DNA of 64,000 bases, from positions 1,302,001-1,366,000 of the forward strand of contig NZ_AP017977.1 of NCBI RefSeq assembly GCF_000648235.2, in the 5' to 3' direction. The notes below the pieces were generated by a model. That model was not told the DNA's origin. It saw only the letters and a program-made list of their open reading frames with translations, and ran no database searches. This DNA comes from Neochlamydia sp. S13 (GTDB lineage Bacteria; Chlamydiota; Chlamydiia; Chlamydiales; Parachlamydiaceae). A program made the translations under genes and the position numbers. Shown here in pieces: positions 728 through 31,732 of the stretch; within the stretch, counting starts at the first letter, position 1; every line of letters starts with the position of its first letter.

Positions 728-739
728 AATTTTTTGTCG

Positions 740-1189
740 TTACCTTTTATCTTCAAGAAAAGAGTTAATATGGTCTATTTTTACTTTTTTGTACGTAGAG
801 CTTTGGAAAGAGTGGTCATGAAAAGCGGCCCCTGGGCAAGAATTTAAGGTCACTGTGTCGCGTTTACTCCGTATTAATCCTCCCACATCAATATAAGGGA
901 TAGGATCGCGCCAAGCTTGTGCTCGATAGTGATAAGCTTTTCTACAGGAGTCAGCATATATATAAGCTGCTGGAGCAATGGCTAACACAGTAATTTGCTT
1001 GCGTAGCTTTTCATCATAACTTAAAAGAGCATTTCTGACATTTATAGCCCCTTGGCTATGGCAAATTTGAAAATACTCTCCGCGTGGATATTCGTCAAAG
1101 AATTTATTCCATGTTTCATGATTAACGCGTACTGGAGGCGTAGCTCTATAACATAGACCTAAACCTGATTCAACACAATCGCTAATCAA
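740..1189 (-). pseudogene. Orphan Rhs C-terminal tip (hydrolase-like), no Rhs core
   Basis: About 149 codons that match the last ~150 residues of the Rhs protein at 5734-11202 almost residue for residue, including the serine elbow HSQGA and the FHDHSF segment. The last ~15 residues differ (KKVKIDHINSFLEDKR against EGAIDDHISTFLKNRR). There is no credible start: the first codon usable as a start is a TTG within the homology, and the Rhs core is absent. This is the classical look of an orphan Rhs tip, a source of new tips by recombination or a relic. It is probably not expressed by itself, but the reading frame and the putative catalytic residues are intact. Confidence 0.7.
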
Positions 1190-1560
1190 TTAGAGGGCTG
1201 AGTAGGCAGGCTTTTTTAAAGCGTATAATAAGAAATATAAAATTTGAATCAATATTGTTAACACTCCGCCAGGCATGCCTGTACCTGTACCTATGGTGCA
1301 CATGTTAGAGTTTGCCTGGAATGTTTGGCGGATTCTCATACGCCTTTAAGCTAACCCTTATGCACCTCCATACTTTATAAAAGCATCCCCTGAAGTCGAT
1401 TGGTAGCTTGAAAGGATTGGGTATGCAAGCCTACCTTTATAAGGTCAATTACTTAAAATTTAGCCTACCAGGCTAGCCGTTCAGCTTCTTTATAGCTATC
1501 TAGCAAGCTTAGTACAGCACCAGATAGACGGCTTAAAGCGATAAAATTGGGAATATAAAT
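1190..1560 (-). repeat. Decayed lipoprotein-gene remnant between cassettes
   Basis: No intact gene. About 1255-1355 resembles the middle of the lipoprotein gene (the region encoding GIGMPDG) with many changes. About 1388-1560 is the repeated block also seen at 1-175, 4011-4186 and 4993-5169. The stretch joins cassette 1 to cassette 2 of the array. Confidence 0.55.
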
Positions 1561-1788
1561 TTATTTCTTACTTTCATTTTGAACCATTTTCAATGCTTCC
1601 TCAAACTTTTCTTCCTCTATCTTCATGTATCTGTTGGGGTTTTCAGAAGCGGTAAACATATAGTCTATTTGGGCTTTTGTAGAAGAAAGAGCCCCGAAAT
1701 GTGGGTAATAAATATTGTAGCCTGAGGGGTCCTCCAGAAAAATTGCAATCTCAATATCATTAGGGGTAAAGGGATAATTTTTTAAGTA

Positions 1789-4186: not shown

Positions 4187-4738
4187 TTATTTCTTACTTT
4201 CATTTTGAACCATTTTCAAAGCTTCCTCAAATTTTTCTTCCTCTATCTTCATGTACCTTTTAGGATTTTCAGCACTAGTATACTTGTAATCGATAGAAGC
4301 ATTTATTGAGGAAATCACCCCATAGCTTGGATCAAAAATATTGTTTCTGAATTTATCTTCCAAAAATATCCTAACTTCAATATCTCTAGCACTGAAGGGA
4401 TAATTGTTTAAGTAAGGTCTAATTTTTTCATGAGTATTGATAATTTGAAGTATTTCTTGTACACAATCTACAATGATTCTACGTCCCTCTTCTTTAGTTA
4501 AAGGGCCCGTTTTTTCAAAGCTTAACGCTAGCATAGTCACCACTCCATCAGGCATGCCTATGCCTGTACCAATGGTACGCATGCTATATTTTTTTTGAAG
4601 TTTTTTAGAAGCTTTATCTAAAATTTCGCCTACAAATTTCGCCTGTTCAGGCTCTTCATAGCTATTCAATAAGCTCAATACGCAACCAGATAGCATGAAC
4701 ATTAAAATGATAAGAATGGGAACATGAAATTTATTCAT
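4187..4738 (-). CDS. Putative immunity lipoprotein (copy 3)
   Basis: 183 residues with lipobox LSGC near residue 19. The first 32 residues are the same as in copy 1, followed by a domain ending in KYMK/RYMKIEEEKFEEAL. The region around residues 48-56 (QKKYSMRTI) is like copies 2 and 4 instead of copy 1 (RSKYDMRPI), so the copies look like mosaics. It is preceded by a 45-codon Rhs tip remnant (4750-4890). Function in neutralising the Rhs tip is inferred from gene order only. Confidence 0.75.
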   Translation of the reverse strand: MNKFHVPILIILMFMLSGCVLSLLNSYEEPEQAKFVGEILDKASKKLQKKYSMRTIGTGIGMPDGVVTMLALSFEKTGPLTKEEGRRIIVDCVQEILQIINTHEKIRPYLNNYPFSARDIEVRIFLEDKFRNNIFDPSYGVISSINASIDYKYTSAENPKRYMKIEEEKFEEALKMVQNESKK

Positions 4739-5169: not shown

Positions 5170-5721
5170 TTATTTCTTACTTTCATTTTGAACCATTTTC
5201 AAAGCTTCCTCAAACTTTTCTTCCTCTATCTTTGAATTTTTTTTGGGGTTTTCTGAAGATTTATATTTGTAGTTAACTGATCCATCGATTTCAGAAATTA
5301 CACCATAATCAGGTTCATAAATTTTATTTCCATCTTTTGTCTTTAAAAAAAGCCTAATTTCAACGTTATTGGGGGTAAAGGGATAATTTTCTAAATAAGG
5401 TCTAATTTTTTCATTCTTATTTACTGTTTGAATCATTTCCTCTACACACCCTACGATAATTGCACGCCCTTCTTCTTTGGTTAGAGGGCCCGTTTTTTCA
5501 AAACTTAAGGCTAACATGGTTACCACTCCGCCAGGCATGCCTATGCCTGTACCAATGGTACGCATACTATATTTTTTTTGGAGCTTTTTGGAGACGCTAT
5601 TTAAAATGTCGCCTACAAATTTCGCCTGTTCAGGCTCTTCATAGCTATCCAATAAGCTCAATACGCAACCAGATAATATGAACATTAAAATGATACAAAT
5701 GGGAACTTGAATTTTATTCAT
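5170..5721 (-). CDS. Putative cognate immunity lipoprotein of the Rhs protein (copy 4)
   Basis: 183 residues, hydrophobic N-terminus and lipobox LSGC near residue 19, so a predicted lipoprotein. It starts 12 bases after the Rhs stop codon with an AAGGA ribosome site in front, so it is very likely co-transcribed with the Rhs gene. Its central and C-terminal parts (GDILNSVSKKL, FLKTKDGNKIYEPDYG) differ clearly from copies 1 and 3, while the N-terminus is shared with copy 2. A lipoprotein partner next to a lipase-like toxin tip recalls the Tle/Tli pairs of type VI secretion, where the lipoprotein protects the periplasm. That parallel is inference. Confidence 0.78.
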   Translation of the reverse strand: MNKIQVPICIILMFILSGCVLSLLDSYEEPEQAKFVGDILNSVSKKLQKKYSMRTIGTGIGMPGGVVTMLALSFEKTGPLTKEEGRAIIVGCVEEMIQTVNKNEKIRPYLENYPFTPNNVEIRLFLKTKDGNKIYEPDYGVISEIDGSVNYKYKSSENPKKNSKIEEEKFEEALKMVQNESKK

Positions 5722-5733
5722 AATTTGTCGTCC

Positions 5734-8700
5734 TTATCTTCTATTTTTAAGGAAAGTACTAATATGGTCATCTATTGCTCCTTCATACGTAGGGCTTTGG
5801 AAAGAATGGTCATGAAAAGCGGCCCCTGGGCAAGAATTTAAGGTCACTGTGTCGCGTTTACTCCGTATTAAGCCTCCTACATCAATATAAGGGATAGGAT
5901 CGCGCCAAGCTTGTGCCCGATAGTGATAAGCTTTCCTACAGGAGTCAGCATATATATAAGCTGCTGGAGCAATGGCTAACACAGTAATTTGCTTACGTAG
6001 CTTTTCATCATAACTTAAAAGAGCATTTCTGACATTTATGGCCCCTTGGCTATGGCAAATTTGAAAATACTCTCCGCGTGGATATTCGTCAAAGAATTTA
6101 TTCCATGTTTCATGATTAACGCGTACTGGCGTAGTAGCTGTATAACATAAACCTAAGCCTGATTCAATACAATCGTTAAGCAAATTATGCGTAGCATTAT
6201 GGATAACATCTATCGAATATTCCCAGCCTAATTCTCTAAGGTGGATGGCATTATTAATAGCCTCTAGTTGGGTTGTCATAATGCCATTATGAACACCTAG
6301 ACGAAAATTTTCCGATTTACTCCCTAGCAATACGGCTAATGAGGAGCTTTCACAGCGCACAAATTTTCTTTCAAACCTATCTGTAAAGCTAACTCTAGGC
6401 AGGCTTTTTGTATTTTCACCTTTTTCTCTAATGGGTGTTTTTTCTATTCTATAAGAGGCGCGCTCTTTGCCATACATGATCACACTTTCGCGGTGTTTTT
6501 CCCCACGGCTAGGACTGGAACTTCTTAATCCATACAGGTCTCTATCATTTAAAGGATTGTTTAAAAGATAGGCATATAGATTAGGGCCAGCCTCAAAGCT
6601 TAAAGGATCTGCAGTTACCCAGCGTGTGGTGGCGGGGTTGTAATAGCGGCGTCCAAAGTAAACAAACTGGGTTTCAGCGTCCACACGTTTAGAAGAAAAA
6701 CGCCAAGGGTTGATCGATTGCTTGATAAGCTTATTATTTTTGCCATAGATAGATTCTTGCCCATAAGCGGTATATCGATAAGTTTCTTCTATGCTATGGG
6801 TCTTGGCGTTAATCAGTAGGCGGATATTGCCTAACGTGTCATGGATGGGTATGTAAGCCTTACCTTGGAGTTCTAGCAAAACCGAAGCGTCTATTTCAGC
6901 TCCTTTACCTCTACCTAATATACGCAATTGCTGAATGTTGCCTTTAGAGTCGCAAGCGCCAATTTCGTTAAGTCCATGGTACATGTAACGAATTTCTTTC
7001 TCAGGTATCCACGTGTTTTCAACTTTAGAGCAGGAATAAAAGGTGCTGCTTAAACGGCGGTTAAGCTCATCATAGGCATAGGTGACCTGATGAGTAGGGG
7101 TATGAATGGCAATCAAGCGATCTAATGCATCGTAAGATAAGTTTAAAGAGCCTTTACGGATAAGGTTTCCATTTAGGTCGTAGACATGTGGGTCTAAGCC
7201 ATCATGAAGGAGCTGATTGAGAGCATTAACGGTATGGGGACGTTTATTTTTCTCCACCATATTATTGAGGGAGTCGTAGCGATAAATATGATCCCCTAAG
7301 CCTTTTTCGGATTGAAGCTGATATAAAGCATCGTATGTATAGGTACTGTTTACTTTGCCTACTGGGTCGAGGGTTGTTCTTTTTAAAAGATTGCCCACTT
7401 GATCAAAACCGTTATCAGGAATATCCTCTTTTAAGGACTTAGACGAAATGCTAATCAGACGAGAATAGGCATCGTAAGTGTATTGAATCGTGCCTGCTTC
7501 CGCCATCAATTTAGCCTCTTCTAATGCCCCCGAAAGATTGTAATGCTGATAGGTGTGTCGATAAGGGCCTCGACTAATTTGATGAAGGTAAAGCGATTTA
7601 TAAGAGTATTGAATAGAAGAATGGTCTGGAAGTATAATTTCCTGGATTCTATCTAAATTGTCGTAACTATATTTTTGAGTTAACCCATGGGATAAAGTTT
7701 CTTGGACCAAACGTTTATTTTTATCGAAAATACGCGTGGTAGACTTTCCTGTATGCTTATCCTCCACACCTACAACATTAGAGTTAGCATCATAAGTATA
7801 GCAGTAATGCAAAGAGTTATCAGTGGAGGAAAAAGAGGTGAGGCGACCTAGCCAGTCATAGGCGTAGTAAAGTTCTATCCCATCGGGTTTGATAACTTTT
7901 TCTTTTTGTCTATAAGCATTATAGACATACTTTGTTTGCTTTTGTTCAGGACTTCCTACGGCTTCCGTACAACTGATCAGATTTTTGGCAAAGTCATACT
8001 CAAAATGAGTGGTGACCAGCCGATCAGGTTGATGAGGAGTCAACACATGCTCAATTTGTTTACAGCAAAGTCCTTCTGCATCATAAAAAAACTCACGTTT
8101 TTGCAGGATAACGCCCATAGGGTCGCGACGAATTGCAAAGCGAACCTGCCCGCAGCTATCATGCTCCTGAAAAAAAGATTGGCCGATGGCGTCGATGGTT
8201 TCTTTAGCATATACATATTGGCCCTCTTGATTAAGGTGAAGATAATAAAAGAGGGTGCGTGTTGTATGTCCTTGAGGATCAATCAAAGTGGCAACATCCC
8301 CATAGGCATTATAGTGGGTAAAGGTGATAACAGGCTTTGATTGATGATAAGAAATTGTTTGGATGGGCTGGCCTTGCTCGTTGTAAAGATAGCCTATTTT
8401 AGTTAAAACCTGTCCTTCAGCATCCTCGGTTCGCTCTTCGATAAGGCGATCCTTAGCATCATACTCTTTAACGTTGGCAATATAGTCTTTTTCCTCGGAG
8501 CCAAAATATTCCAAAGTCTTAGCGAGCCGTTGGCAGGCATCATATTGATAAACAGTTTTTGCCTCATTTTTCGCCATGCTGGCCAGACGACCAGCAGCAT
8601 CGTATTGATAATAAGTAGATTGCCCTCCAGCATCCACTTCGGCTATCTTATGAAAATGATTGTAATGGGTAGTGGTTTCGCTAAGCTTTTCCCCTGTAGG

Positions 8701-11202
8701 AGCAAAAGTCATTTGCCGACAAGCTCTTCCTAAATAATCATACTCTGTCTGGGTAACCACTCCATTTAAGGAGATGCTTTTAGCAAGATATCCTTCAAGG
8801 GTATATGCATTCTTTTCGGTAGATCCATCAGGATATTGGATGAGGGAGGGCTGGCCTCGGATATTATAATTAAAAGTTGTTTTAAAACCTCGACGATCAG
8901 TTTTACAGATAGGGTTATCGGCAATATCATACTCAATACATTCAAAAGGCTGATAAGGTTGGCCATGAGAATCTAATAGCTTTGGATAGATTGTTTTGAT
9001 TAAACGTCCACAATGATCGTAAGTGTATTGAGTGGTCTCTCCCTGCCAATTGGTCATCGCTACTTTTTGGCTAAGGCCATTATAAGCATAATGGGTCGTT
9101 AACGTTTGATCAGCATGGATATCTTTAGAACAAATGCGTCGATTAGAAAAGTCATATTCATGCACAGTATGATAATCTTTGCCAGGGTATTGCTCAAAAA
9201 TAAGGTTGTCGTTTTCATCGTATTGATAGAAAGAGGTATGCCCTAAAGCATTAGTCTCTTTAAGAATATTTCCATGGGCGTCGTAATCCCAATGCAAAGT
9301 AAAGCGAGGCTGCCCGTTACTATCAAAATGTGTCTGCTGGGTTATACGCCCTTGATGATCATGGAAATTTTGAGTTTTTTGCAGTAAAATCTCTTCCTTA
9401 AGGGCAAGGTCTAAATACTTTTCTTCAATAATTTCAGGTAAACCCACAGGAAATTGATCGCGATAGCTTGTATACACACTATGGCGCTCTGTGATACCTG
9501 CCAGATCCTCTTCTTCTAAAGCATGCCCATCATCATAAACATAGCGTGTGATCGAACCATTGCTGTTATAAGTATAAAATTCGCGATAGATAATTTTGTT
9601 ATTCACGCGCATGAATTTTTTATGGAGTAAAGCAGATTTAGGGTAATAGACGTAAACGATCTCTTTACAACCATCTTGCTCACGTAATAAATGGTTATAT
9701 CCATCATCACTATACTCATAAGTGCGAATGTAGCTGTCATATTGTCCCGCTATAGGAATGCCCTCTTTATTTAGCACAGGGCCCTTTGCATTCCCCGTAA
9801 GATTTCCAAGCAACCATTCATGTTTTATATTTCCATTTTTGTCATAATCGTAATAGCGGCTGCTTAGTAAGTTACCCTGGCCATCTTGTAGGGTTTTAGT
9901 TGTTAAACATCCCTCTAAAATTGGCAAAGAGCTCCAAAAAAAACTTTGCGTGCGATAAAGATTAGCGTCTAACAGCTTATCGATGCCTGTTAAGCGTCTT
10001 TTTGAGTCATAATGATAGCGAGTTTCTTGGTTATGAAGATCGAGCACGCGGGTCGTCCCACCTGGATAGCTATAAATACGACTTTTACGGTTGATAAAGT
10101 TTACCTCATAGTAAAAGCGATGGGTAGGGTGCAGGGTTTGATCTGTTCCTACAGCAGCTTTTAAACAAGATACACGTTCATAAGGGGAAGTACATCCATC
10201 GTAAAAAGTTAAAGGTTTTTTAGTATAAGCGTAAGGGTTGGTTTCATCGTAATATTCAATTTGCTTGCAGCGACCATTGGGTAGGGCTTTTTGTTTCATG
10301 CGGTGGGTAGTATCATCGTAAGAATAGCAGATTTTGGGAGCGTGAGTAGAAATCACTTGATGGAGGTCATGTCTGGCCGGATAATTGCTGAAAAGATATT
10401 CACAGCTTCCGCTTTTATCTTGATTGGCATAGGCTACCATGCGGGGATTAAGCTTAAAATTATCATATTCAAAGTGAATCTTCCCTAAATCTTGCTTAAG
10501 GCTATTCGTATTACTTATCTCATCAATTTTCCACCCTAAAGGGGATTTTTGATAGGTATACTGCGTCTTAATTCCATAAGGTTTTTGTTCATAAGTAAGC
10601 CCATCTTGATAGCGAATCTCAGTCAGGGAAAGTGGCGTGCGATGACTAGAACCAAAATATTTAAGGCTTTTTGAACCATCTCTTAAGTACACGGCAAAAG
10701 TACCTGGTTTAGGAGAAATAATTTGCATCTGAAGATTATGAGGATTGCTTTTCCCACTGATAAATCCTCTAGAGCAATTGGTCAACCCCTGACTGTAATT
10801 GGTTGCATTGATGAAAAGGGTGCGCCCAATTAGGGTATTGGTATATAAAGTCTTCATGCCTTTTTCTTCGTGAACAACTCTGTTTAAGCTGCCGCCAAGC
10901 ATTTCTACATTTTCTGGCTCGTTAATGCTCCAGCCGCTGGTATGGGTGTAAATACGCTCTATATAGAGAGGATCTGGACCTGGGGTCCATAGATCAATAG
11001 CATGATCGATAAAGGTACCCGTGATGACGTTAACGCATCCGTCTACCATAGCTGAAGGCTCCCCACCTAAAGTGGCGATATTTTGCTCGCCTATAAGGGT
11101 TTCTTGGGAGGAATTAAAGTTTGCCAAGCCCACAGGTTCTTCAGTCGCTTGAAGAGGTAGGCAAACACTGCATAAGAAAAAAATTAAAAGAAAATTTCGC
11201 AT
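5734..11202 (-). CDS. Exported Rhs/YD-repeat protein with serine-hydrolase-like C-terminal tip
   Basis: 1822 residues. It starts with a Sec-type signal peptide (to about residue 20, LPLQATEEP) and has a GGAAGA ribosome site. From about residue 80 to 1500 it is built of YD repeats (many YDxxGRL units). The conserved Rhs core end (YFGRRYYNPATTRWVTADPL ... NLYAYLLNNPLNDRD) closes near residue 1553 with DLYGL in place of the usual DPxGL. The last ~270 residues are the variable tip, with a GXSXG-like elbow, HSQGA (serine 1718), and a later FHDHSF. The tip may belong to the chlamydial DUF687-type proteins; I could not verify this. Known Rhs proteins form a shell around a toxic tip. The target here is unknown. 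The cognate lipoprotein gene follows directly. Confidence 0.9.
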   Translation of the reverse strand: MRNFLLIFFLCSVCLPLQATEEPVGLANFNSSQETLIGEQNIATLGGEPSAMVDGCVNVITGTFIDHAIDLWTPGPDPLYIERIYTHTSGWSINEPENVEMLGGSLNRVVHEEKGMKTLYTNTLIGRTLFINATNYSQGLTNCSRGFISGKSNPHNLQMQIISPKPGTFAVYLRDGSKSLKYFGSSHRTPLSLTEIRYQDGLTYEQKPYGIKTQYTYQKSPLGWKIDEISNTNSLKQDLGKIHFEYDNFKLNPRMVAYANQDKSGSCEYLFSNYPARHDLHQVISTHAPKICYSYDDTTHRMKQKALPNGRCKQIEYYDETNPYAYTKKPLTFYDGCTSPYERVSCLKAAVGTDQTLHPTHRFYYEVNFINRKSRIYSYPGGTTRVLDLHNQETRYHYDSKRRLTGIDKLLDANLYRTQSFFWSSLPILEGCLTTKTLQDGQGNLLSSRYYDYDKNGNIKHEWLLGNLTGNAKGPVLNKEGIPIAGQYDSYIRTYEYSDDGYNHLLREQDGCKEIVYVYYPKSALLHKKFMRVNNKIIYREFYTYNSNGSITRYVYDDGHALEEEDLAGITERHSVYTSYRDQFPVGLPEIIEEKYLDLALKEEILLQKTQNFHDHQGRITQQTHFDSNGQPRFTLHWDYDAHGNILKETNALGHTSFYQYDENDNLIFEQYPGKDYHTVHEYDFSNRRICSKDIHADQTLTTHYAYNGLSQKVAMTNWQGETTQYTYDHCGRLIKTIYPKLLDSHGQPYQPFECIEYDIADNPICKTDRRGFKTTFNYNIRGQPSLIQYPDGSTEKNAYTLEGYLAKSISLNGVVTQTEYDYLGRACRQMTFAPTGEKLSETTTHYNHFHKIAEVDAGGQSTYYQYDAAGRLASMAKNEAKTVYQYDACQRLAKTLEYFGSEEKDYIANVKEYDAKDRLIEERTEDAEGQVLTKIGYLYNEQGQPIQTISYHQSKPVITFTHYNAYGDVATLIDPQGHTTRTLFYYLHLNQEGQYVYAKETIDAIGQSFFQEHDSCGQVRFAIRRDPMGVILQKREFFYDAEGLCCKQIEHVLTPHQPDRLVTTHFEYDFAKNLISCTEAVGSPEQKQTKYVYNAYRQKEKVIKPDGIELYYAYDWLGRLTSFSSTDNSLHYCYTYDANSNVVGVEDKHTGKSTTRIFDKNKRLVQETLSHGLTQKYSYDNLDRIQEIILPDHSSIQYSYKSLYLHQISRGPYRHTYQHYNLSGALEEAKLMAEAGTIQYTYDAYSRLISISSKSLKEDIPDNGFDQVGNLLKRTTLDPVGKVNSTYTYDALYQLQSEKGLGDHIYRYDSLNNMVEKNKRPHTVNALNQLLHDGLDPHVYDLNGNLIRKGSLNLSYDALDRLIAIHTPTHQVTYAYDELNRRLSSTFYSCSKVENTWIPEKEIRYMYHGLNEIGACDSKGNIQQLRILGRGKGAEIDASVLLELQGKAYIPIHDTLGNIRLLINAKTHSIEETYRYTAYGQESIYGKNNKLIKQSINPWRFSSKRVDAETQFVYFGRRYYNPATTRWVTADPLSFEAGPNLYAYLLNNPLNDRDLYGLRSSSPSRGEKHRESVIMYGKERASYRIEKTPIREKGENTKSLPRVSFTDRFERKFVRCESSSLAVLLGSKSENFRLGVHNGIMTTQLEAINNAIHLRELGWEYSIDVIHNATHNLLNDCIESGLGLCYTATTPVRVNHETWNKFFDEYPRGEYFQICHSQGAINVRNALLSYDEKLRKQITVLAIAPAAYIYADSCRKAYHYRAQAWRDPIPYIDVGGLIRSKRDTVTLNSCPGAAFHDHSFQSPTYEGAIDDHISTFLKNRR

Positions 11203-16792: not shown

Positions 16793-19318
16793 ATGGATCC
16801 ATTTGACCTAAGACTTTGGGAAGGCTTTTCTGCAGCCCTATCTGGCGCTTATATAGGCTCCCCTATTGTGGATCAAATCTGCATTGACTCTCGCTTAATT
16901 TCCTCTCCCCATGCACTATTTGTAGCTTTACCAGGACAAGTTGAAGATGGTCATGATTATATTGAACAAGCAGCCATAGCAGGCGCACGCTTTGCAATTG
17001 TACGCGATGATTGGCAACCAGCCAAGTTACCTGCTATTAATCTTTTACGTGTTTTAGATCCTTTAAAAGCTTTCCAAGAGATAGCTACGGCCTATCGACA
17101 TCAACTTAAGCCCTTTATAGTCGGCATCACTGGTACGCATGGTAAAACAATGGTTAAAGATTTGCTACAGGCGATGATAGCACCTACCAAAAGAGTAATA
17201 GCATCTCCTGGTAGCTTTAATAGCCAAGTGGGCGTGCCTTTAAGCATTCTCAACATCTCTCAACAGCATGAGATTGCGCTGATAGAAGCAGCGGTGTCCC
17301 AAGATAATGAAATGGATCACTTAGCAAAAATTATTCATCCTCAAGCCTGTATACTCACTCATTTAGGCAAAAAGCATCTGATCACTTTCGGCAACCAACA
17401 GGCCCTTGTAGCAGAAACTGTTAAGCTTATAACTGTCCCTCCTGAAAATAAATGGGCCCTTATCCCTGAAACTCCTTTTCTCGAGCCTTATTTAAAGCAA
17501 ATTAAAGCTCCTTACTATTTTTGGAATAGAGAAAGTCCTTTTCTTCCCCATGCTCATCTTTTAAACAAACCTTACGATGCAGAGATGCTTTATGGCATTA
17601 AATTTCCTTGCGGAACTTATTTAAAAGAAAGAATTAATGCTGGCTTCTATTATTTCATGGATCTTCTTAACATTTCAGTTAAAGCTGCCTGGCTCCTGGG
17701 AGTCTCTGCTGAGGTAATCAAAGAGGTCCTTTGTAACTATATCCTAGAGCCAATGCGCACAGAAATATGGAAGTCGCCAATAGGCGCAACATTTATCAAT
17801 GAGACTTATAGCTCTGATCCTCAATCTGTTGATCAAGCCCTTAAACATTTTGAGCACTCCTCTAATGAACAGCGTAGGATATTTATTTTTGGTGGCATAC
17901 GAGGAAAAAAAGAAAATAACACTTCGGAATATAGGCGCATAGGCCATGCTCTTATAAAAAATAAAGTGCAAATGCTAGCTTTAGTTGGCTCGCATGATTT
18001 TCAAGAAATCATTAACATAGCTAACCAAGCAAAAAGTCCTTTAGAAATTTGCCATTACAATAGCTATCGCGATGCCCTTGAGCAGATGCAAGCCCATATA
18101 AAAGGCAATGATTATGTAGTCATCAAAAATGAACGTAAAGAATCATTAAATAATTTAATAAAAATTTTTAATGATAGTATAGCCAGCAATCAATGTTTTA
18201 TAAATCTTGCTGCTATACAATCCAACATTGCAACCATTCGCCATAAGGTAGGAGCTAACACGCGCCTTATGGTGATGGTTAAAGCGTTAGCTTACGGCAC
18301 CGAGGAGATACGCATAGGAAAATTTTTATCCACCTGCGGAGTTGATATCTTGGGCGTTTCTTGTGTAGATGAAGGGGTAGTCCTTAAAAGAGCTGGCGTT
18401 AAGCAATCAATATTTGTGATCCATTCTTCTATTTATGAAATTGCAAAAATTGTTAAATGGGAGCTGGAAGTGGGGGTAAGTGAAAAGGAATTTATTACTG
18501 CCCTAGCAAGCGAGGCTTCTAAACAAAATAAAAGCATTCGAGTACACTTGCATGTTGATACAGGAATGAATCGCCTAGGGTGCCCAGCTAACAACGCCTT
18601 TGAGCTTGCGACTTTAATCAAAGATTGCCCCCATCTTATTTTAGAAGGCTTAATGACCCATTTTGCCTGTGCTGATGACCCCAAGCAAGACTCTTTTACA
18701 TTGGCTCAAGCGCAGAGCTTTGATGCTGTCATTGCCCAGTTAAAAAAGCATCATATTGCAGCTAACTATTACCATGCCTCAAACTCAAGCGCAGTTGTTA
18801 GATTTGATTTTAATCAGTATAACATGGTTCGCGTGGGTTTAGCTATCTATGGACTCCACTGCTCAGAAGCTACCCGCCAGGCAATGGAATTGCGACTCTC
18901 TCTTACGCTTGTTTCAAGGATAGCGGGCATTAATTATTGCAAAGCAGGCGATACCATTAGCTATGGCCGCAGTTACCTCGTAGAACGGGATAAACAAATA
19001 ATCGCTGTCCTTCCTATTGGATATTTTGATGGCCTTCATCGCCATTACAGTGGAAAAGGGTATGTTCTCATTCGAGGGCAAAAAGCACCTATGGTAGGAA
19101 AAATCTGTATGGATTTTATGATGGTAGATGTTACGGATATTGAGAATGTAGCCATTGGAGATGCAGTATTGATCTTTGGTGAGGATGAGCATGGCCAATA
19201 TCTTGCTCCTGAAGAAGTAGCTTCCCAGGGAGATTCGATTGTCCATGAATTGATTACCTGCTTAGGACCTCGTATTCAGCGAATATTTATCCATGAAGAA
19301 ACTAACCAAAAAAGCTAA
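16793..19318 (+). CDS. murF-alr: Bifunctional MurF ligase / alanine racemase fusion
   Basis: 841 residues. Residues 1-460 are a Mur ligase: N-terminal MurF domain, ATP loop GITGTHGKT (about 111-119), then a C-terminal ligase domain with TFINETYSSDP. It adds D-Ala-D-Ala to UDP-MurNAc-tripeptide. Residues 465-841 are alanine racemase: PLP lysine in VMVKALAYG (K497), VDTGMNRLGC, and the catalytic tyrosine region ISYGRSY (about Y724). The fusion thus makes D-alanine and uses its dipeptide in the same peptidoglycan route. Such fusions are known mainly from Bacteroidetes. No strong ribosome site precedes the ATG. The gene overlaps the convergent gene at 19315 by 4 bases. Confidence 0.93.
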   Translation: MDPFDLRLWEGFSAALSGAYIGSPIVDQICIDSRLISSPHALFVALPGQVEDGHDYIEQAAIAGARFAIVRDDWQPAKLPAINLLRVLDPLKAFQEIATAYRHQLKPFIVGITGTHGKTMVKDLLQAMIAPTKRVIASPGSFNSQVGVPLSILNISQQHEIALIEAAVSQDNEMDHLAKIIHPQACILTHLGKKHLITFGNQQALVAETVKLITVPPENKWALIPETPFLEPYLKQIKAPYYFWNRESPFLPHAHLLNKPYDAEMLYGIKFPCGTYLKERINAGFYYFMDLLNISVKAAWLLGVSAEVIKEVLCNYILEPMRTEIWKSPIGATFINETYSSDPQSVDQALKHFEHSSNEQRRIFIFGGIRGKKENNTSEYRRIGHALIKNKVQMLALVGSHDFQEIINIANQAKSPLEICHYNSYRDALEQMQAHIKGNDYVVIKNERKESLNNLIKIFNDSIASNQCFINLAAIQSNIATIRHKVGANTRLMVMVKALAYGTEEIRIGKFLSTCGVDILGVSCVDEGVVLKRAGVKQSIFVIHSSIYEIAKIVKWELEVGVSEKEFITALASEASKQNKSIRVHLHVDTGMNRLGCPANNAFELATLIKDCPHLILEGLMTHFACADDPKQDSFTLAQAQSFDAVIAQLKKHHIAANYYHASNSSAVVRFDFNQYNMVRVGLAIYGLHCSEATRQAMELRLSLTLVSRIAGINYCKAGDTISYGRSYLVERDKQIIAVLPIGYFDGLHRHYSGKGYVLIRGQKAPMVGKICMDFMMVDVTDIENVAIGDAVLIFGEDEHGQYLAPEEVASQGDSIVHELITCLGPRIQRIFIHEETNQKS

Positions 19319-22476: not shown

Positions 22477-22592
22477 ACCTAATTTATAAATTAAAGGTTA
22501 TTTAGATGCAACGCCTACTTCTATCTATAAAATAGAAACGGATTTTATTTTTTCTATTCGTAATTTTTAAAGAAGGAGGTTAAATAGACTAG

Positions 22593-22790
22593 GAATTATA
22601 ACGGCTGGTGTCACAGATAAGTTAAATGATGGGATAAGTATAGCGCTATTTATGCACCTTAAGAACGATTCTCACTATCAAGCGCAACCAGAGAGGATGA
22701 ATTCGCTGGCTGATTAAACCTTTGAGGGTTGATGATCCCGATCTTATTCAGAACTTATTAAAAAATAGTTTACTTTAGATCATAAAACCT
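22593..22790 (+). pseudogene. Decayed fragment of a paralogue of the giant TPR gene
   Basis: About 200 bases match 25905-26090 of the 8.3-kb gene downstream, the helical segment after the nucleotidyltransferase domain. Shared stretches include GATGAGTATAGCGCTATTTA (with one change) and the codons for LIKPFGFDDPNLI. Small indels and stops break the frame. A related gene therefore once stood here, or a partial duplication occurred. Confidence 0.75.
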
Positions 22791-22809
22791 CGAAAAGATA
22801 ATAAAGATT

Positions 22810-23458: not shown

Positions 23459-26400
23459 ATGATTATAGAAAACTTGTCTATTAACCCTTTTATATTTACT
23501 GCGTTTAAGAAAATAGGAAAAGAAAAACAACCTTATCTGAAGCTAAGCACCTATGTAGGGCTTAGCTTAAAAATTTTCAAAAAATTAGAAAAGCAAGACT
23601 TGTGCAAAGCACGATTGGTTTGTAAAGAGTGGAAGGAGCTAATTGAACTAACTGAGGAATGGAAAAGTTTTCATGCAAAAGAAGTGAGAACTAACTCACC
23701 AACAGAAAAACAACAATCTAACTTTTTAGCTCCTAGTCAATGGAACAAACATAGAATAGCTGAGTGCTTATGGCAGGATTCTTCAACTATTATTAGTGAG
23801 TCCATGATAGCAAAAGTAAATACTGCGGCTGACTATCTAAGTAAGGAAGGATTTGAATTAAAGGGTGTTCCCAGTGATGGTGACTGTTTTTTTAGCGCTT
23901 TTTTAGGAAGTTATGCTTGTCTTTCAAGGAAAATCCCTTTGCTAGACGATCAAAAAAACAAAATTTCCTATTTAAGAGAAGCGCTCTCAGGCATCATCAA
24001 GCATACGAACAACGAAAGAGCAGAAGAAATAATAAGAAAAAGATCTTGGGTAAGCGGCTTAGGTGAAGGAGATCTGCTAGCTTCGGATTTATCTATTCCT
24101 ATAAGATTGGTGACAGTCAATGAGGAACATTTGATTTGTGGCGTTAATGATATGCTTATCCTCCCAAGAGAGGGAATAGCTGCAGCTGAAACAACCCAGG
24201 AATGGGGCACTATTCCTGATGAAGAAAGACCTAAAGAATATATCCTCATTGTAGATTTAGGAGGTCATTTTATTTATGCCCAAAAGCCTTTAAAGCAGAA
24301 TAACTTTCTTCCTTTAAAATCAGCAACTTCCCCTACTCTCCTTTCGGGTGAAGACCATTCTTTTTCTCCTCATATAAAAGCTAGAATGAATAAAGTTAAA
24401 AGATTTTCCCTTATAAAACAGGATTTTAATGAGGCTGGTAAACAAGAAATATTTGATCCCTCCAATCCTTTAGCTACTCTACCCTTAAAAATTTTCCAAC
24501 GGATTTTCCTTTCTTTCAACAGTTTAAACGATGATGAATTAAGAAAGGTTCTTAATGCTAAAAGCTGTGCTCGCATGTTTAAGCAGCACCTACCTAGCAA
24601 GATGCAGTTGTTGACACGCTATCAACCTCAAAAATCGCCTGAGTATCTTAATAAGATTGCTGAATATCTAGACAAAATTGTTTATTCTATAGATGAAAGT
24701 AATAGTTTTTTAACAAAAATTAAGTTAAAAGAAGCAGAAGAAGCCTATACGCTAGCTTTAAAGCTGGCCACTCAAAAGAACGATTCCATCCAAGAGAGCA
24801 TCTGCATAGAAAAACTAGGTGATGTTTATGTGGGTAAAGGGACACCTGAAACGTTTCTGCAAGCGGCAGGACTTTACAATTATGCTTTATACCTTGCTCC
24901 CCCAGAGCGACAAATAATTCTTAGTGATAAGCTTTGTAGAGCCCAAAACTTGATAATTAGAGCCTGTAAGGGTAACCCCTTAAGTTTAGCGATAATGCAG
25001 GAGCAATTTATTACCAATCGCCAAGTATTAAAAAATTTTAGAGAGGAAGTAGAGGAGAAAATTCAAGTCCTGCCAGAAACGCCTTCTTTCCAAGAAGTGA
25101 GGGACCTTTACCGAGATGTTGCCCAGAGTATAAAAAGCTTTTTTAGCGCTTTGGTAAATCAGGCTATCGATGTCTTAGGCCCTGCGCCTTGTGAATATGC
25201 TATGATAGGCTTTGGTTCCCTAGCTAGAGAAGAGATGACTCCTTATTCCGACCTAGAATTTGGTATCATTATACAAGAGGATACTCCTACAAATAAAAAA
25301 TACTTTAAGAATCTTACGAATCTAATTCACTTAAAAGTTATCAACTTAGGAGAAACCATCCTTCCTGCTTTAAATATTCCTTGCTTACAAGCCATAAGTT
25401 TTTTTGATAGCATAACCTCACGGGGCTTTGCCTTTGATGGAGCAGGGGTAGAAGGAAAAGGCTGTAAAACCCCTTTCGGTAATGGTAAGACATTTGAGCT
25501 TATCCAAACTCCTGAAAAGATGGCCCAATATATTGGTAAGGATGAAAATGGTCAATGGTGGCATGATAAAGAGCCACATCTTCCTATGGAATTGCTAAAC
25601 TTTACTCCTTTGCTTGGCAATTTTGAATTAATTAAAGCCTATGATGGAAATATTCAAGAAGTGCTTAATATGCATTATCAAGAAAGCCTTGATCTGCGCC
25701 AGTACTTAGCCAAGCAACACCTTGTACTAGCTGATATGGAAGCTTTTAATCCAGGAATGGGCGATTTAGGTAGGCAGGGCATGCTTTTTAAAGTTAAAAA
25801 TGATTTTTATCGTTTTCCTCATTTGGCTTTAGACCGGCTAGCCCTTCTTAAAAAAGTAGAAGCTTCCGACACCTTTACTAGGATTGATAAACTAAGTGAG
25901 TTAAAGATTATAACGGAAGGCGCCGCCGAAAAGTTAAAGGATTGGATGAGTATAGCGCTATTTATGCGCCTCAAAACCTATTCACATTATCAAGCACAAC
26001 AAGAGATGATGAATCCGCTGATTAAACCCTTTGGCTTTGATGATCCTAACCTTATTAAAAAGCAATTTGCGTTAGATCATGAAGCGTTGGAAAAGGTAAA
26101 AAAAATTTATCGTATTTTTATTCCTTTCCATCAAGCTATCCAAGATTTTCTAGCAGGCCACGAAGAAAGCCTCAAATTATCAGATTTAGAGGACCACTCC
26201 CCGGATACACAAGGTGATATAGCCCTAAGGCTTTTTCAATATAAGGAAGCAAAAAAGTATTACAAGTTAGCAAAAAAAGCAAATGCAAAAAACCCATACT
26301 TTTTAGGTTTTCTGGGCATCATTTATAATGCCCAAGGAGACTTAGATAAAGCCGCGGAATACGTTAAAAGCGCTTTTGCCATTAACTTTGAGCTTGTTGG

Positions 26401-29400
26401 GGAAAATCATCCCCAAATGGCAGCATTTTACAATAACCTTGGGGGCATCTATCACAGGCAAGGCAATTTAGAGCAAGCGGCTAAGTATGCACAACAAGCA
26501 CTCGCCATTGATCTTAGGACTTTCGGTGAAAATCATCCCACAGTGGTAATTTATTATAATAATCTAGGGCAAAACTATCTAGAACAAGGTAATTTAGAGC
26601 AGGCGGCTGAGTATGCTAAAAAAGCTCTCGCTATTAGCCTCAAACTTTTTGGCGAAAATCATCCCAATGTAGCAACAATTTATAGCAACCTTGGAGGCAT
26701 CTATCTACACCAAAGCAATTTAGACAAAGCAACCGAGTACACAAAAAAAGCGCTCATTATTGACCTTAAGCTTTTTGGTGAAAATCATCCTACTGTAGCC
26801 CTCTGTTACAACAACTTAGGACAAATCTATCACGACCAAGGTAATTTGGATAAGGCGGCAGAGTATACTAAGGAAGCGCTTGCTATTAACCTTAAGCTTT
26901 TTGGGGATACTCATCCCACGGTGGCGAGTCTTTATAGCAATCTAGGAGCCATCTGCAAAGCAAAAGGCAATTTAGGACAGGCGGATGAGTATGCCAAGAA
27001 AGCGCTTAATATTGATCTTATGCTTTTTGGTGAAAATCATCCTACTATAGCAAATAATTATCACAGATTAGGTACAATCTGCCAAGAGAAAGGGAATTTA
27101 GACAAGGCAGCCGAATATAGCCACAAAGCTCTTACTATCGGACTCAAGCTTTTTAGTGAAAATCATACTACTGTAGCCACCTATTATAACAACTTAGGAC
27201 AAATTTATAAAGAGCAAGGAAATTTAGATAAGGCGGTGGAATATGCACAAAAAGCGCTCATTATTGACCTTAAGCTTTTTGGTGAAAACCATACTACTAT
27301 AGCAGCATGTTATAATAACTTGGGACAAATCTACCAAAGCCAAGGCAATCTAGACAAAGCGGCTGATTACACTAAAAAAGCTCTCGCCATTGGCTTAAAG
27401 CTTTTTGGTGAAAATTATCCCACGGTGGCGATTTATTACAATAATTTGGGACAGATCTACAAAGAGCAAGGCAATTTGGACAAGGCGGTTGATTATAGCA
27501 ACAAAGCTCTCGCTATTGACCTTAAGCTTTTTGGTGAAAATCATCCCAAGGTGGCAAGAGATTATAACAACTTGGGGCACATCTATCAAGAGCGAGGTAA
27601 TTTAGAACAGGCGATGGAGTATGCTAAGAAAGCTCTCGCTATTAGCCTTAAGCTTTTTGGTGAAACTTATCCCGAGGTGGCGATAATTTACAACAATCTT
27701 GGAGGGATCTATAAAGAACAAGGTAATCTAGACAAGGCGGCTGAGTACACCAAGAAAGCGCTCATTATTGACCTTGAGCTTTTTGGTGATAATCACGCTG
27801 CTGTGACAACAACTTACAACAACCTTGCGGACATCCATAAAGAGCAAGGAAATTTGGAAAAGGCAGCTGAGTATATCAGCAAAGCTCTTATCATTGATCT
27901 TAAGCTTTTTGGTGAAAAACATCCCATGGTGGCAAGAGATTATAATAACTTGGGACAAATTTACAAAGAGCAAGGCAATTCAGATAAGGCGATTGAGTAT
28001 AGCAGCAAAGCTCTTGCCATTCACCTTAAGCTTTTCGGTGAAAACCATTCTACTGTAGCAGGATGTTTTAACAACTTGGGACAGTATTACCAAGAACAAG
28101 GCAATTTAGGCAAGGCGGTTGATTATAGCAACAAAGCTCTCGCCATTAATCTTAAGCTTTTTGGTGAAAATCATTCCAATACGGTCATGACTTACAACAA
28201 CCTTGGGGGCATCTATCATAAACAAGGCAGTTTAGACAAGGCGATTGATTACACTAAAAAAGCTCTCGCCATTAATCTGAAGCTATTTGGGGAAAATCAT
28301 TCTAAGACGGCAATATTTTATAGCAACTTGGGACAATATTACCAAGAACAAGGCAATTTAGGCAAGGCTGCTGAATATATCAATCAAGCTCTCGAGATTG
28401 ACATTAAGCTTTTTGGTGAAAATCATTCCGATACGGCAATGACTTACAACAACCTTGGAGGTATCTATCATATACAAGGCAATTTAGACAAGGCGATTGA
28501 TTACACTACTAAAGCTCTCACCATTAACCTTAGCCTTTTCGGTGAAACCCATTCTAAAACAGCAATGTTTTATAGCAACTTGGGGCAGTATTACCAAGAA
28601 CAAGGCAGCCTAGAGCAAGCGGCTGAATACACTAAAAAAGCTCTCGCCATTAACCTTAAGCTTTTTGGTGACACTCATGCTGTGGTAGCAAGAGATTACA
28701 ATAACTTAGCTCAAATCTACCAAGACCAAGGCAATTTAGATAAGGCCGCTAAATACGCCAAAAAAGAGCTAGCTACTAGTGTTATACTTTTTGGCGACAA
28801 CCATCATACAGTGTCCCAAGGTTACCACACGTTGAGAAAAATTTATAAAAAGCAAGGCAATTTGGAGCAAGCCGCTAAGTATACTAAGAAAGCGCTTGCC
28901 ATTGGTATTAAGAGTGGAGGGGGAAATAGCTATGATATAGCAACAGCTTGCAACAAATTGGGACAAATTTACAAAGAGCAAGGCAATTTAGACAAGGCAG
29001 CTAAATACATCGAGAAGGCACTTGCCATTAACCTTGAACTTTTTGGTGAAAAACATCCCATGGTGGCAAGAGATTGCAATAACTTGGAGCAAATTTACAA
29101 AGAGCAAGGCAATTTAGATAAAGCAATGGAATATATTAATAAATCTTTTGCTATTGAACTTAAGCTATTTAGTGAAAATGACCCCAAGATGGTAGAAGAT
29201 CACAATAATTCCAGAATGATCTACCAAAAGTACGGCAATTTAGACAATGCAGCTGAACGCACGCAGAAAGCACTAGCTATGGACCTGGAGCTTTTTGAGG
29301 AAAATCATATTGCTATAGCAAGCGATTACAACAACCTGGGACAAATCTACCAACACCTCGGCAATTTAGATAAGGCCACTGAATACATTGGAAAAGCTCT

Positions 29401-31732
29401 CGCCATTGACCTTAAGCTTTTTGATGAAGATCATCCCATGGTGGCAAGAGATTATAATAACTTGGCGCAAATCTACCAAGACCAAAGCAATTTAGATCAG
29501 GCGATTGAGTATAGCAACAAAGCTCTTGCCATTCACCTTAAGCTTTTTGGTGGCACTCATGTTATGGTAGCAAGAGATTACAATAACTTAGCCCAAATTT
29601 ACCAAGACCAAGGCAATTTAGATCAGGCGGCTGAATGCACTAAAAAAGCTCTCGCCATTAAAATTAAGCTTTTGGGTGAAAATGATTTTGCGGTGAAAAG
29701 CGAGTACTACAACTTAAGGCAAATCTACCAAGATCAAGGCAATTTAGAAAAGGCCGCTAAATACGCCAAGAAAGAGCTTGCTACTACTGTTATGCTTTTT
29801 GGCGACAACCATCATACAGTGTCTCAAGTTTACCACACGTTGAGAAAAATTTATAAAAAGCAAGGCAATTTGGAGCAAGCCGCTAAGTATACTAAGAAAG
29901 CGCTTGCCATTGATATTAAGAGTGGAGGGGGAAATAGCTATGATATAGCAACAGCTTGCAACAAATTGGGACAAATTTACAAAGAGCAAGGCCATTTAGA
30001 CAAGGCAGCTAAATACATCGAGAAGGCACTTGCCATTAACCTTGAACTTTTTGGTGAAAAACATCCCATGGTGGCAAGAGATTGCAATAACTTGGAGCAA
30101 ATTTACAAAGAGCAAGGCAATTTAGATAAATCAATTGAATATATTAATAAATCTTTCGCTATTGAACTTAAGCTTCTTAGTGAAAATGACCCCAAGATGG
30201 TAGAAGATTACAATAATTTTAGAATGATCTACCAAAAGTACGGCAATTTAGACAAGGCAGTTGAATGCACGCAGAAAGCACTAGCTATGGACCTTGAGCT
30301 TTTTGATAAAAATCATATTGCTATAGCAAGCGATTACAACAACCTGGGACAAATCTACCAACACCTCGGCAATTTAGATAAGGCCACTGAATACATTGGA
30401 AAAGCTCTCGCCATTGACCTTAAGCTTTTTGATGAAGATCATTCCATGGTGGCAAGAGATTATAATAACTTGGCGCAAATCTACCAAGACCAAAGCAATT
30501 TAGATCAGGCGATTGAGTATAGCAACAAAGCTCTTGCCATTCACCTTAAGCTTTTTGGTGGCACTCATGTTATGGTAGCAAGAGATTACAATAATTTAGC
30601 CCAAATTTACCAAGACCAAGGCAATTTAGATCAGGCGGCTGAATGCACTAAAAAAGCTCTTGCCATTAAAATTAAGCTGTTGGGTGAAAATAATTTTGCG
30701 GTAAAAAGCGATTACTACAACTTAAGGCAAATGTACCAAAAACAAGGCAATTTAGAAAAGGCCGCTAAATACGCCAATAAAGAGCTCGCTACTAGTATGA
30801 GGCTTTTTGGCGAAAATCATCATACAGTGTCTCAAGTTTACAACGACTTGGGACAAATTTATAAAGAGAAAGGTAACTTTGAACAAGCCGCTGAGTATAC
30901 CAAAAAAGCGCTTGCCATTGATATTAAGAGTGGGGGGAAAAACAGTTATGGTGTGGCGACAGCTTATAGCAACTTAGGACAAATTTACAAAGAGCAGGGC
31001 AATTTGAAACAAGCGGCTGAGTATACCAAGAAAGCGCTTGCCATTGACGTTAACCTTTCGGGGGAAAATAGCTATCGTTTAGCAACAGATTACACTAACT
31101 TAGGACAAATTTACAAAGAGCAGAGCAATTTAGACAAGGCCGCTAAATATGCCAAGAAAGTACTCGCCATTAACCTTAAGCATTTTGGTGAAAAAAGTCC
31201 TGTAGTAGCAAGAGATTACCATAACTTGGGAATACTCTACCAAGAGCAAGGCAATTTAGATAGGGCTTTGGCATATGCACAAAAAACGCTTACTATTATT
31301 ATTAAGCTTTTTGGTGAAAATAATCCCATAGAAGCAAGCGATGACGATAACTTGAGAACAGTCTACCCAGATCACAGCAATCTAGATAAGGTAGCTGAGC
31401 ATACACGACAAGCGCTTGCTATTGCTATTGACCTTGAGAGCCGTGGTGAAAACCCTCTTAAGGTAGCGACAATTTATAATAATCTTGGAAGAACCTATAA
31501 AAAACAAGGCAAATTAGACAAAGCGGCTGACTATACATTAAAAACGCTTACTGCTGTTCTTAAGATTTTTGAGGAAGATCATCCTATGGTAGCAAAATTT
31601 TATAACAACTGTGGAATAACTTGCGAAGAAAAAGGCAATTTAGAGCAAGCCGCTCAGCATATCAAGAAAGCGCTTGCTACTAACCTTAGTTTTTTTAAGG
31701 AAGCAGCTTATAAGTCAGAGATCTTAAAGTAA
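23459..31732 (+). CDS. Giant F-box/OTU/nucleotidyltransferase-like/TPR protein
   Basis: 2757 residues with a strong AGGAGG site. Domains in order: F-box-like helix set at about 30-75 (LSLKIFKKLEKQDLCKARLV); OTU cysteine protease at about 120-280 with D140-G-D-C143 and histidine about 270 in GGHFIYA; a second F-box-like segment near 340-385 (LPLKIFQRIF); a nucleotidyltransferase-like domain near 584-602 (GFGSLAREEMTPYSDLEF, with DLE where DLD is usual); a helical region; then about 43 TPR units of 42 residues (about 944-2750) of kinesin-light-chain type (NNLGQIYKEQGNLDKA). F-box and OTU domains act on host ubiquitin in known effectors, so a secreted host-targeting protein is inferred. No Sec signal is present. 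Confidence 0.88.
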   Translation: MIIENLSINPFIFTAFKKIGKEKQPYLKLSTYVGLSLKIFKKLEKQDLCKARLVCKEWKELIELTEEWKSFHAKEVRTNSPTEKQQSNFLAPSQWNKHRIAECLWQDSSTIISESMIAKVNTAADYLSKEGFELKGVPSDGDCFFSAFLGSYACLSRKIPLLDDQKNKISYLREALSGIIKHTNNERAEEIIRKRSWVSGLGEGDLLASDLSIPIRLVTVNEEHLICGVNDMLILPREGIAAAETTQEWGTIPDEERPKEYILIVDLGGHFIYAQKPLKQNNFLPLKSATSPTLLSGEDHSFSPHIKARMNKVKRFSLIKQDFNEAGKQEIFDPSNPLATLPLKIFQRIFLSFNSLNDDELRKVLNAKSCARMFKQHLPSKMQLLTRYQPQKSPEYLNKIAEYLDKIVYSIDESNSFLTKIKLKEAEEAYTLALKLATQKNDSIQESICIEKLGDVYVGKGTPETFLQAAGLYNYALYLAPPERQIILSDKLCRAQNLIIRACKGNPLSLAIMQEQFITNRQVLKNFREEVEEKIQVLPETPSFQEVRDLYRDVAQSIKSFFSALVNQAIDVLGPAPCEYAMIGFGSLAREEMTPYSDLEFGIIIQEDTPTNKKYFKNLTNLIHLKVINLGETILPALNIPCLQAISFFDSITSRGFAFDGAGVEGKGCKTPFGNGKTFELIQTPEKMAQYIGKDENGQWWHDKEPHLPMELLNFTPLLGNFELIKAYDGNIQEVLNMHYQESLDLRQYLAKQHLVLADMEAFNPGMGDLGRQGMLFKVKNDFYRFPHLALDRLALLKKVEASDTFTRIDKLSELKIITEGAAEKLKDWMSIALFMRLKTYSHYQAQQEMMNPLIKPFGFDDPNLIKKQFALDHEALEKVKKIYRIFIPFHQAIQDFLAGHEESLKLSDLEDHSPDTQGDIALRLFQYKEAKKYYKLAKKANAKNPYFLGFLGIIYNAQGDLDKAAEYVKSAFAINFELVGENHPQMAAFYNNLGGIYHRQGNLEQAAKYAQQALAIDLRTFGENHPTVVIYYNNLGQNYLEQGNLEQAAEYAKKALAISLKLFGENHPNVATIYSNLGGIYLHQSNLDKATEYTKKALIIDLKLFGENHPTVALCYNNLGQIYHDQGNLDKAAEYTKEALAINLKLFGDTHPTVASLYSNLGAICKAKGNLGQADEYAKKALNIDLMLFGENHPTIANNYHRLGTICQEKGNLDKAAEYSHKALTIGLKLFSENHTTVATYYNNLGQIYKEQGNLDKAVEYAQKALIIDLKLFGENHTTIAACYNNLGQIYQSQGNLDKAADYTKKALAIGLKLFGENYPTVAIYYNNLGQIYKEQGNLDKAVDYSNKALAIDLKLFGENHPKVARDYNNLGHIYQERGNLEQAMEYAKKALAISLKLFGETYPEVAIIYNNLGGIYKEQGNLDKAAEYTKKALIIDLELFGDNHAAVTTTYNNLADIHKEQGNLEKAAEYISKALIIDLKLFGEKHPMVARDYNNLGQIYKEQGNSDKAIEYSSKALAIHLKLFGENHSTVAGCFNNLGQYYQEQGNLGKAVDYSNKALAINLKLFGENHSNTVMTYNNLGGIYHKQGSLDKAIDYTKKALAINLKLFGENHSKTAIFYSNLGQYYQEQGNLGKAAEYINQALEIDIKLFGENHSDTAMTYNNLGGIYHIQGNLDKAIDYTTKALTINLSLFGETHSKTAMFYSNLGQYYQEQGSLEQAAEYTKKALAINLKLFGDTHAVVARDYNNLAQIYQDQGNLDKAAKYAKKELATSVILFGDNHHTVSQGYHTLRKIYKKQGNLEQAAKYTKKALAIGIKSGGGNSYDIATACNKLGQIYKEQGNLDKAAKYIEKALAINLELFGEKHPMVARDCNNLEQIYKEQGNLDKAMEYINKSFAIELKLFSENDPKMVEDHNNSRMIYQKYGNLDNAAERTQKALAMDLELFEENHIAIASDYNNLGQIYQHLGNLDKATEYIGKALAIDLKLFDEDHPMVARDYNNLAQIYQDQSNLDQAIEYSNKALAIHLKLFGGTHVMVARDYNNLAQIYQDQGNLDQAAECTKKALAIKIKLLGENDFAVKSEYYNLRQIYQDQGNLEKAAKYAKKELATTVMLFGDNHHTVSQVYHTLRKIYKKQGNLEQAAKYTKKALAIDIKSGGGNSYDIATACNKLGQIYKEQGHLDKAAKYIEKALAINLELFGEKHPMVARDCNNLEQIYKEQGNLDKSIEYINKSFAIELKLLSENDPKMVEDYNNFRMIYQKYGNLDKAVECTQKALAMDLELFDKNHIAIASDYNNLGQIYQHLGNLDKATEYIGKALAIDLKLFDEDHSMVARDYNNLAQIYQDQSNLDQAIEYSNKALAIHLKLFGGTHVMVARDYNNLAQIYQDQGNLDQAAECTKKALAIKIKLLGENNFAVKSDYYNLRQMYQKQGNLEKAAKYANKELATSMRLFGENHHTVSQVYNDLGQIYKEKGNFEQAAEYTKKALAIDIKSGGKNSYGVATAYSNLGQIYKEQGNLKQAAEYTKKALAIDVNLSGENSYRLATDYTNLGQIYKEQSNLDKAAKYAKKVLAINLKHFGEKSPVVARDYHNLGILYQEQGNLDRALAYAQKTLTIIIKLFGENNPIEASDDDNLRTVYPDHSNLDKVAEHTRQALAIAIDLESRGENPLKVATIYNNLGRTYKKQGKLDKAADYTLKTLTAVLKIFEEDHPMVAKFYNNCGITCEEKGNLEQAAQHIKKALATNLSFFKEAAYKSEILK
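28742..30757 (+). repeat. Tandem 1008-bp duplication inside the TPR gene
   Basis: The block starting at 28742 recurs at 29750, exactly 1008 bases later (eight TPR units of 126 bases), with few changes; a third start of the same block is seen at 30758 but diverges after about one unit. Marker units such as SGGGNSYDIATACNK, ENDPKMVEDHNN/YNN and GGTHVMVARDYNN appear once in each copy. Confidence 0.9.

Follow-up and report, generated by a model that had tools for sequence, protein, structure and literature searches.

Background and main finding

The closest described relatives of the protein discussed here belong to NEX2, a large paralogous family reported by Domman et al. (2014; PMC4209131) as 50 proteins in two Neochlamydia genomes. 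All have C-terminal TPRs, a majority an N-terminal F-box and most a DUF294 domain mid-protein, while in ten members an OTU domain directly follows the F-box. The type III signal of one representative proved functional when assayed in a heterologous system, and computed secretion prediction was positive for only two members. The general role proposed there for F-box families is that of substrate adaptors, leading host proteins to ubiquitination and degradation through the SKP1-cullin ubiquitin ligase (SCF). Here we examine the gene at 23459..31732 of a 64-kb stretch (hereafter the window) of Neochlamydia sp. S13 contig NZ_AP017977.1. It is a single intact open frame of 2757 codons, encoding, in order, an F-box, an OTU domain, a helical segment that we call mid, a nucleotidyltransferase of the DUF294 type and an array of 43 TPRs.

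A preliminary description of the DNA had read this domain set correctly, including the repeat count, but had taken the combination to be without described precedent. Since NEX2 already has F-box, OTU, DUF294 and TPRs in the same order, with ten members in print, the gene product is a member of that described kind. What is new is the function that structural modelling predicts for the module at its centre, namely attachment of AMP. In the available portion of PMC4209131 DUF294 appears as a putative nucleotidyltransferase, and we found there neither an adenylyltransferase fold nor AMPylation, the mid segment or reuse of the F-box-OTU pair. The open-licence literature, represented mainly by titles and abstract openings, yielded no AMPylation assignment for the NEX2/DUF294 family either. 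Our preferred reading, to which we give a probability of about one half, is of an SCF-docked NEX2 effector, secreted by the type III system, whose OTU domain would trim ubiquitin while its DUF294 module would AMPylate proteins held by the TPRs. By analogy with its family, the protein is likely to be a type III secreted effector.

An adenylyltransferase-like module

The Pfam DUF294 match (PF03445) covers approximately residues 547-629 and scores 37.4 bits against a gathering cut-off of 21. In the AlphaFold model the nucleotidyltransferase fold is followed by a C-terminal helical domain, the arrangement of GlnE and of Legionella DrrA/SidM, and the module matches DrrA and GlnE domains structurally over its whole length, at 10-16% identity in structural alignments. 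Its helical part aligns with DrrA up to model position 491, which is residue 904. A sequence profile compared with the PDB has DrrA as its top match (6.8e-6), in an alignment that includes G-X11-D-X-D and some of the helical region at the C-terminal end. DUF294_C (2.5e-4) and SidM_N (5.8e-5) match the protein below their own Pfam cut-offs; at E up to 1 they are seen in 18/18 and 17/18 family members, respectively, with a best SidM_N value of 1.9e-6.

The active-site motif reads G586-X11-D598-X-E600, with D660 as predicted third metal ligand. These residues are invariant in 121/121 sequences of one alignment, E600 included, and in 18/18 of another, so that the metal-type acids (D, then E) whose presence the preliminary description had made a check are indeed retained. 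D650, whose surroundings may resemble the D-x-R-L-R-P stretch of GlnE, was also considered as a ligand. It is kept in 120 of the 121 sequences (the remaining one has a gap) but replaced in 3 of the 18, and D660 is preferred because it is kept in every sequence of both alignments. DrrA has further metal residues, Asp150 and Asp249 (PMC8605245). Where GlnE and DrrA have GX11DXD, the motif here is GX11DXE, and for this reason we describe the module as one that may work like theirs rather than filing it with them. It differs from both also in its fusion to F-box, OTU and TPRs.

The module is among the most constrained parts of the protein. Relative to the counterpart in another genome (G028, locus L069), the ratio of non-synonymous to synonymous substitution rates (dN/dS) is 0.14 in the nucleotidyltransferase, 0.14 in mid, 0.16 in the C-terminal part of the module and 0.21 in the TPRs, rising to 0.36 in residues 416-545, 0.42 in the OTU domain and 0.47 in residues 1-95. 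Two short stretches reach 1.2, namely the core of the F-box (45 codons) and the linker 281-335 (55 codons). Among six paralogs, whose 15 pairs are not independent, values are 0.08-0.17 for the nucleotidyltransferase (15/15 pairs), 0.17-0.39 for the OTU domain and 0.13-0.83 for the F-box. Judged by these ratios, the nucleotidyltransferase is under strong purifying selection, and the OTU domain clearly is under such selection too.

The guess of an AMPylating centre made in the preliminary description thus gains support from the whole-domain match to DrrA and GlnE, and the DUF294 module is predicted, from the model, to attach AMP to proteins. Other chemistries of the same fold should nevertheless be weighed: removal of AMP, as by the N-terminal domain of GlnE, transfer of UMP, as by enzymes of the GlnD type, or modification of a small molecule or nucleic acid. 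Together we regard these as a minor prospect, at about the level of the adaptor alternative discussed below.

Relatives of the nucleotidyltransferase occur in 34/232 genomes of the phylum, and an alignment search found 28 loci, chlamydial ones included, extending to metagenome-assembled genomes of Amoebophilaceae, Rickettsiales-type, other proteobacterial and Cytophagales affiliation. A scan of named genome contigs with the single protein gave 50 stretches that fit the pattern, none of which was confirmed. Amphioxus proteins match the core at 29-34% identity. Among 13 core relatives scanned, with chlamydial and metagenomic ones included, DUF294 was found in 12 and a TPR family in ten, and none had an F-box or OTU match with E of 0.001 or below (in one protein, among the matches listed, which cover 25 of 31 families). 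Three Branchiostoma proteins (P0098, P0101 and P0113; 1515-2857 residues) have two or three DUF294 nucleotidyltransferase stretches along with TPR matches, and one of them also has a peptidase M28 domain.

The OTU domain

No Pfam family matches the OTU domain of the protein at threshold, but residues 95-280 adopt the OTU fold in the predicted structure and match OTU structures in the PDB. The catalytic pair proposed in the preliminary description, C143 and H270, was found in 36/36 sequences, as was the aromatic residue after the histidine (F271 here). Fold and Cys/His pair are shared with the OTU deubiquitinases of two intracellular bacteria, Wolbachia wMel (6w9r) and Simkania (SnOTU; 8cmr), although sequence identity to these is only around 13-17%. 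A polar or acidic third residue, a feature that varies among OTU enzymes, is lacking two positions after the histidine: here there is I272, and all 36 sequences have I, V, A, L or G. SnOTU is active with Leu236 in place of an acid at the third-residue position (PMC10643670). A transmembrane region forms part of SnOTU as described, while in the present protein an F-box precedes the OTU domain. On the strength of the model, the domain is predicted to cut ubiquitin.

Relatives of the OTU domain are found in 8/176 genomes drawn from the phylum and 4/38 of the family. Of the four Neochlamydia genomes covered, the present one being among them, two have no match to either the OTU domain or the nucleotidyltransferase.

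A reusable F-box-OTU head

The F-box call of the preliminary description also holds, with a Pfam F-box-like score of 33.5 bits against a cut-off of 24.3 and modelled helices at 31-42, 45-54, 56-63 and 66-73 (pLDDT about 70). The match spans profile positions 9-44 of 47. Positions 1-8, including the usual LP, are unmatched, and the family consensus reads YAEISLKIF where a complete first helix with LP would be expected.

Precomputed F-boxes are present in 34 of 35 database matches to the F-box-OTU region (P0002-P0036, the exception being P0036), though the query contained both parts and so favours such matches. A search of the genome with OTU alone found ten places, two of them identical copies, and each has an F-box in the same frame. 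The pair also stands ahead of quite different bodies: NB-ARC-TPR in P0024 (scanned) and P0021 (as annotated beforehand), an OLD-like AAA ATPase in P0035 of Protochlamydia sp. W-9, and some 1400 residues without Pfam match at locus L105 of G032, a genome of the same family. A second G032 locus (L106:2574-6395) joins OTU to an OLD-like AAA ATPase, with the F-box below cut-off. Because the pair is reused on at least four different bodies, we infer that the OTU domain serves the docking step itself.

Outside Neochlamydia, seven OTU loci were scanned, and an F-box match was obtained in two, both in G032. None was obtained in the other five, of which L104 has HEAT repeats, L103 has leucine-rich and ankyrin repeats (its sequence ends at the locus edge) and L107, L108 and L067 have an OTU domain with nothing else found. 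The L104 protein (7088-10936), from another family of the order, carries the same kind of OTU domain at its extreme C-terminus.

Between this head and the DUF294 module lies mid, modelled at pLDDT below 50 and with no significant Pfam match found. Among 86 Neochlamydia-type proteins, mid accompanies F-box and OTU, as here, in 18 and the F-box in seven. In nine more it occurs where BLAST detects neither F-box nor OTU, and in eight of these it occupies about residues 22-110, the usual place of the F-box. Since mid sits near the N-terminus of F-box-less paralogs, the present protein looks, from these sequence comparisons, like an F-box-OTU head set before a mid-headed body. The same placement, with a pattern reading LPLKIF...DEL...CARVFKQ, suggested that mid might be a second F-box. 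This was not supported: Pfam finds no F-box in the segment, and profile-profile comparison with F-box gives a probability of 3.5.

Relative to the G028 counterpart, the rate of synonymous substitution (dS) lies at 0.09-0.29 in residues 1-415, reaches 0.51 in the helical segment 416-545 and rises to 0.85-1.3 from residue 546. Head and body therefore differ in history. Another direct case is that of P0017 and P0019, proteins of two strains: when their alignment is cut into blocks of 50 columns, the first seven blocks (350 columns) are each 100% identical, and the next 12 show 56-94% identity (the last, incomplete block was left out). For 36 proteins, OTU and nucleotidyltransferase trees reject each other in approximately unbiased (AU) tests (p = 4e-5 and 8e-6). 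Recombination exactly at the border between these domains does not follow, however, because in a control that compared the two nucleotidyltransferase halves the mutual rejection is equally strong (p about 5e-5 in one direction and far smaller in the other), and the test thus does not single the border out. The result points either to recombination along the whole length of NEX2 proteins or to low resolution in the trees.

The TPR array

The array contains two consecutive copies of an eight-unit block whose single units are up to 100% identical, which argues that it grew by block duplication. Pfam matches TPRs from about residue 932 to the C-terminus, and the first of the 43 units is degenerate in the 42-residue scan. 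Variation is greatest at unit positions 3, 12, 13, 16 and 17, positions that in a TPR solenoid would be expected on its inner surface. Array length differs among relatives: P0009 and P0025, counterparts with closely related heads, have 16 and 14 units, the partial counterpart P0007 has five, and the other nucleotidyltransferase genes of the genome have 2-33.

Family members in the genome and gene surroundings

Close named relatives of the protein come from Neochlamydia sp. AcF65, AcF84, AcF95, TUME1 and EPS4. The genome itself holds 25 open reading frames (ORFs) with both nucleotidyltransferase halves, this gene counted. The heads of the other 24, some of which are incomplete sequences, comprise F-box (nine), F-box and OTU (six), F-box, OTU and mid (three), F-box and mid (two), mid alone (two) and none (two). 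All but one retain the full active-site motif (23/24), the exception being a 5'-broken frame. Broken or split NEX2 copies lie at 4372-8152 of C2, a 231-kb contig, and at 1265115-1268497 of C1, the chromosome-size contig. The two contigs share at least 12.9 kb at 99.98% identity (L054 1-12897, C1:1386500-1399396, against L059 1841-14739, on C2), either through recent transfer between replicons or through assembly redundancy. The shared segment holds two NEX2 genes, one of which is broken on C2 (4372-8152) and open on C1 (1389031-1392810).

Features of the gene are collected in Table 1. Its nearest scanned neighbours are housekeeping genes, a photolyase upstream on the opposite strand and an amidase (gatA-like) with gatB downstream, and a remnant of another copy sits just upstream. 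ARAGORN found no tRNA in the window. Elsewhere in the window, an Rhs-repeat protein of 1822 residues (5734-11202, minus strand) has a DUF687 match close to its C-terminus and lies beside several 183-residue ORFs on the same strand (176-727, 4187-4738 and 5170-5721), and a Mur ligase is fused to alanine racemase in an 841-residue protein (16793-19318).

Table 1. Features of the NEX2-type gene and its upstream remnant (window positions)
Feature	Position	Residues	Strand	Basis
Whole gene (NEX2 type)	23459..31732	2757 aa	+	
F-box	23564..23671	36-71	+	Pfam F-box-like 3.5e-8, F-box 9.1e-7
OTU-fold cysteine protease domain	23741..24298	95-280	+	AlphaFold model, PDB matches
Predicted OTU catalytic Cys143	23885-23887	143	+	
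Predicted OTU catalytic His270	24266-24268	270	+	
Mid helical segment, second head module	24464..24703	336-415	+	
Nucleotidyltransferase core (DUF294)	25097..25498	547-680	+	Pfam 2.9e-9; model pLDDT 88
C-terminal helical part of adenylyltransferase-like module	25499..26170	681-904	+	
43 TPR units of 42 aa	26252..31675	932-2739	+	42-residue scan; spacing 126 nt
8-unit TPR block, copy 1	28772..29779	1772-2107	+	lag-8 identity peak
8-unit TPR block, copy 2	29780..30787	2108-2443	+	
Decayed remnant, C-terminal part of another nucleotidyltransferase copy	22577..22798		+	54% identity over 69 residues, 4 in-frame stops

Proposed mechanism and alternatives

In the mechanism that we favour, the F-box would dock the effector on the SCF of its amoeba host, and the OTU domain would strip ubiquitin from the effector itself and from its surroundings on the SCF. 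The effector could then stay on the SCF undegraded while its body modifies a target, the adenylyltransferase-like module AMPylating whatever the TPRs hold and the TPR array setting the target. SKP1 binding, deubiquitination, AMPylation as opposed to AMP removal or use of another nucleotide or acceptor, and choice of target by the TPRs are all deduced steps. Editing of TPR-bound cargo, put forward in the preliminary description, is plausible as a putative activity of the protein. The human AMPylase FICD has two TPR motifs, against 43 units in the present array, and its Fic fold bears no relation to that of nucleotidyltransferases. In FICD, TPRs guide AMPylation of a bound target (PMC12409994).

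The protein might instead be a classical SCF substrate adaptor whose F-box and TPRs deliver host proteins for ubiquitination and degradation, with the OTU domain only shielding it from auto-ubiquitination and the nucleotidyltransferase structural or regulatory. This accords with the general proposal for F-box families cited at the outset and with the number of members that lack an OTU domain. There are 15 of these among the 25 nucleotidyltransferase ORFs, and 11 of the 15 have an F-box (nine F-box only, two F-box and mid). However, a nucleotidyltransferase that is among the most constrained parts, that has an invariant active site and whose core occurs without detected F-box in other bacteria and amphioxus is unlikely to be passive, and we consider the adaptor role improbable, though deserving of attention. 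Very unlikely is a third reading, in which the family evolves by birth and death and this gene, decaying or neutral, has no present function: the nearby remnant, the broken or split copies and the two genus genomes lacking both domains speak in its favour, but the 2757-codon frame is open, the catalytic residues are invariant and dN/dS is well below 1 in OTU and nucleotidyltransferase.

Extending the favoured mechanism to the whole family is more tentative. NEX2 proteins might be AMPylases that act on other proteins while docked on the SCF, some of them with a deubiquitinase in the same chain, with a head swapped by recombination and a target set by a growing or shrinking TPR array.

Implications

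In the literature that we found, as far as the available portions of these sources go, the enzymatic centre of NEX2 has no assigned function. The whole-domain match to adenylylating enzymes and the invariant active site make an uncharacterised family a set of predicted AMPylases open to direct assay. If the prediction is true, they would form a new class of protein AMPylase of nucleotidyltransferase fold, beside GlnE, DrrA and MntA (PMC7641770), with more than 80 Neochlamydia-type proteins and a core common to Amoebophilaceae, Rickettsiales and amphioxus. The F-box-OTU pair poses the question of why docking on a ubiquitin ligase and a ubiquitin eraser should be combined in one effector, and an answer suggested by its reuse with several unrelated bodies is that the eraser is there for the sake of docking. 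Finally, the presence of the same core in amphioxus may point to an AMPylase-like family in animals.
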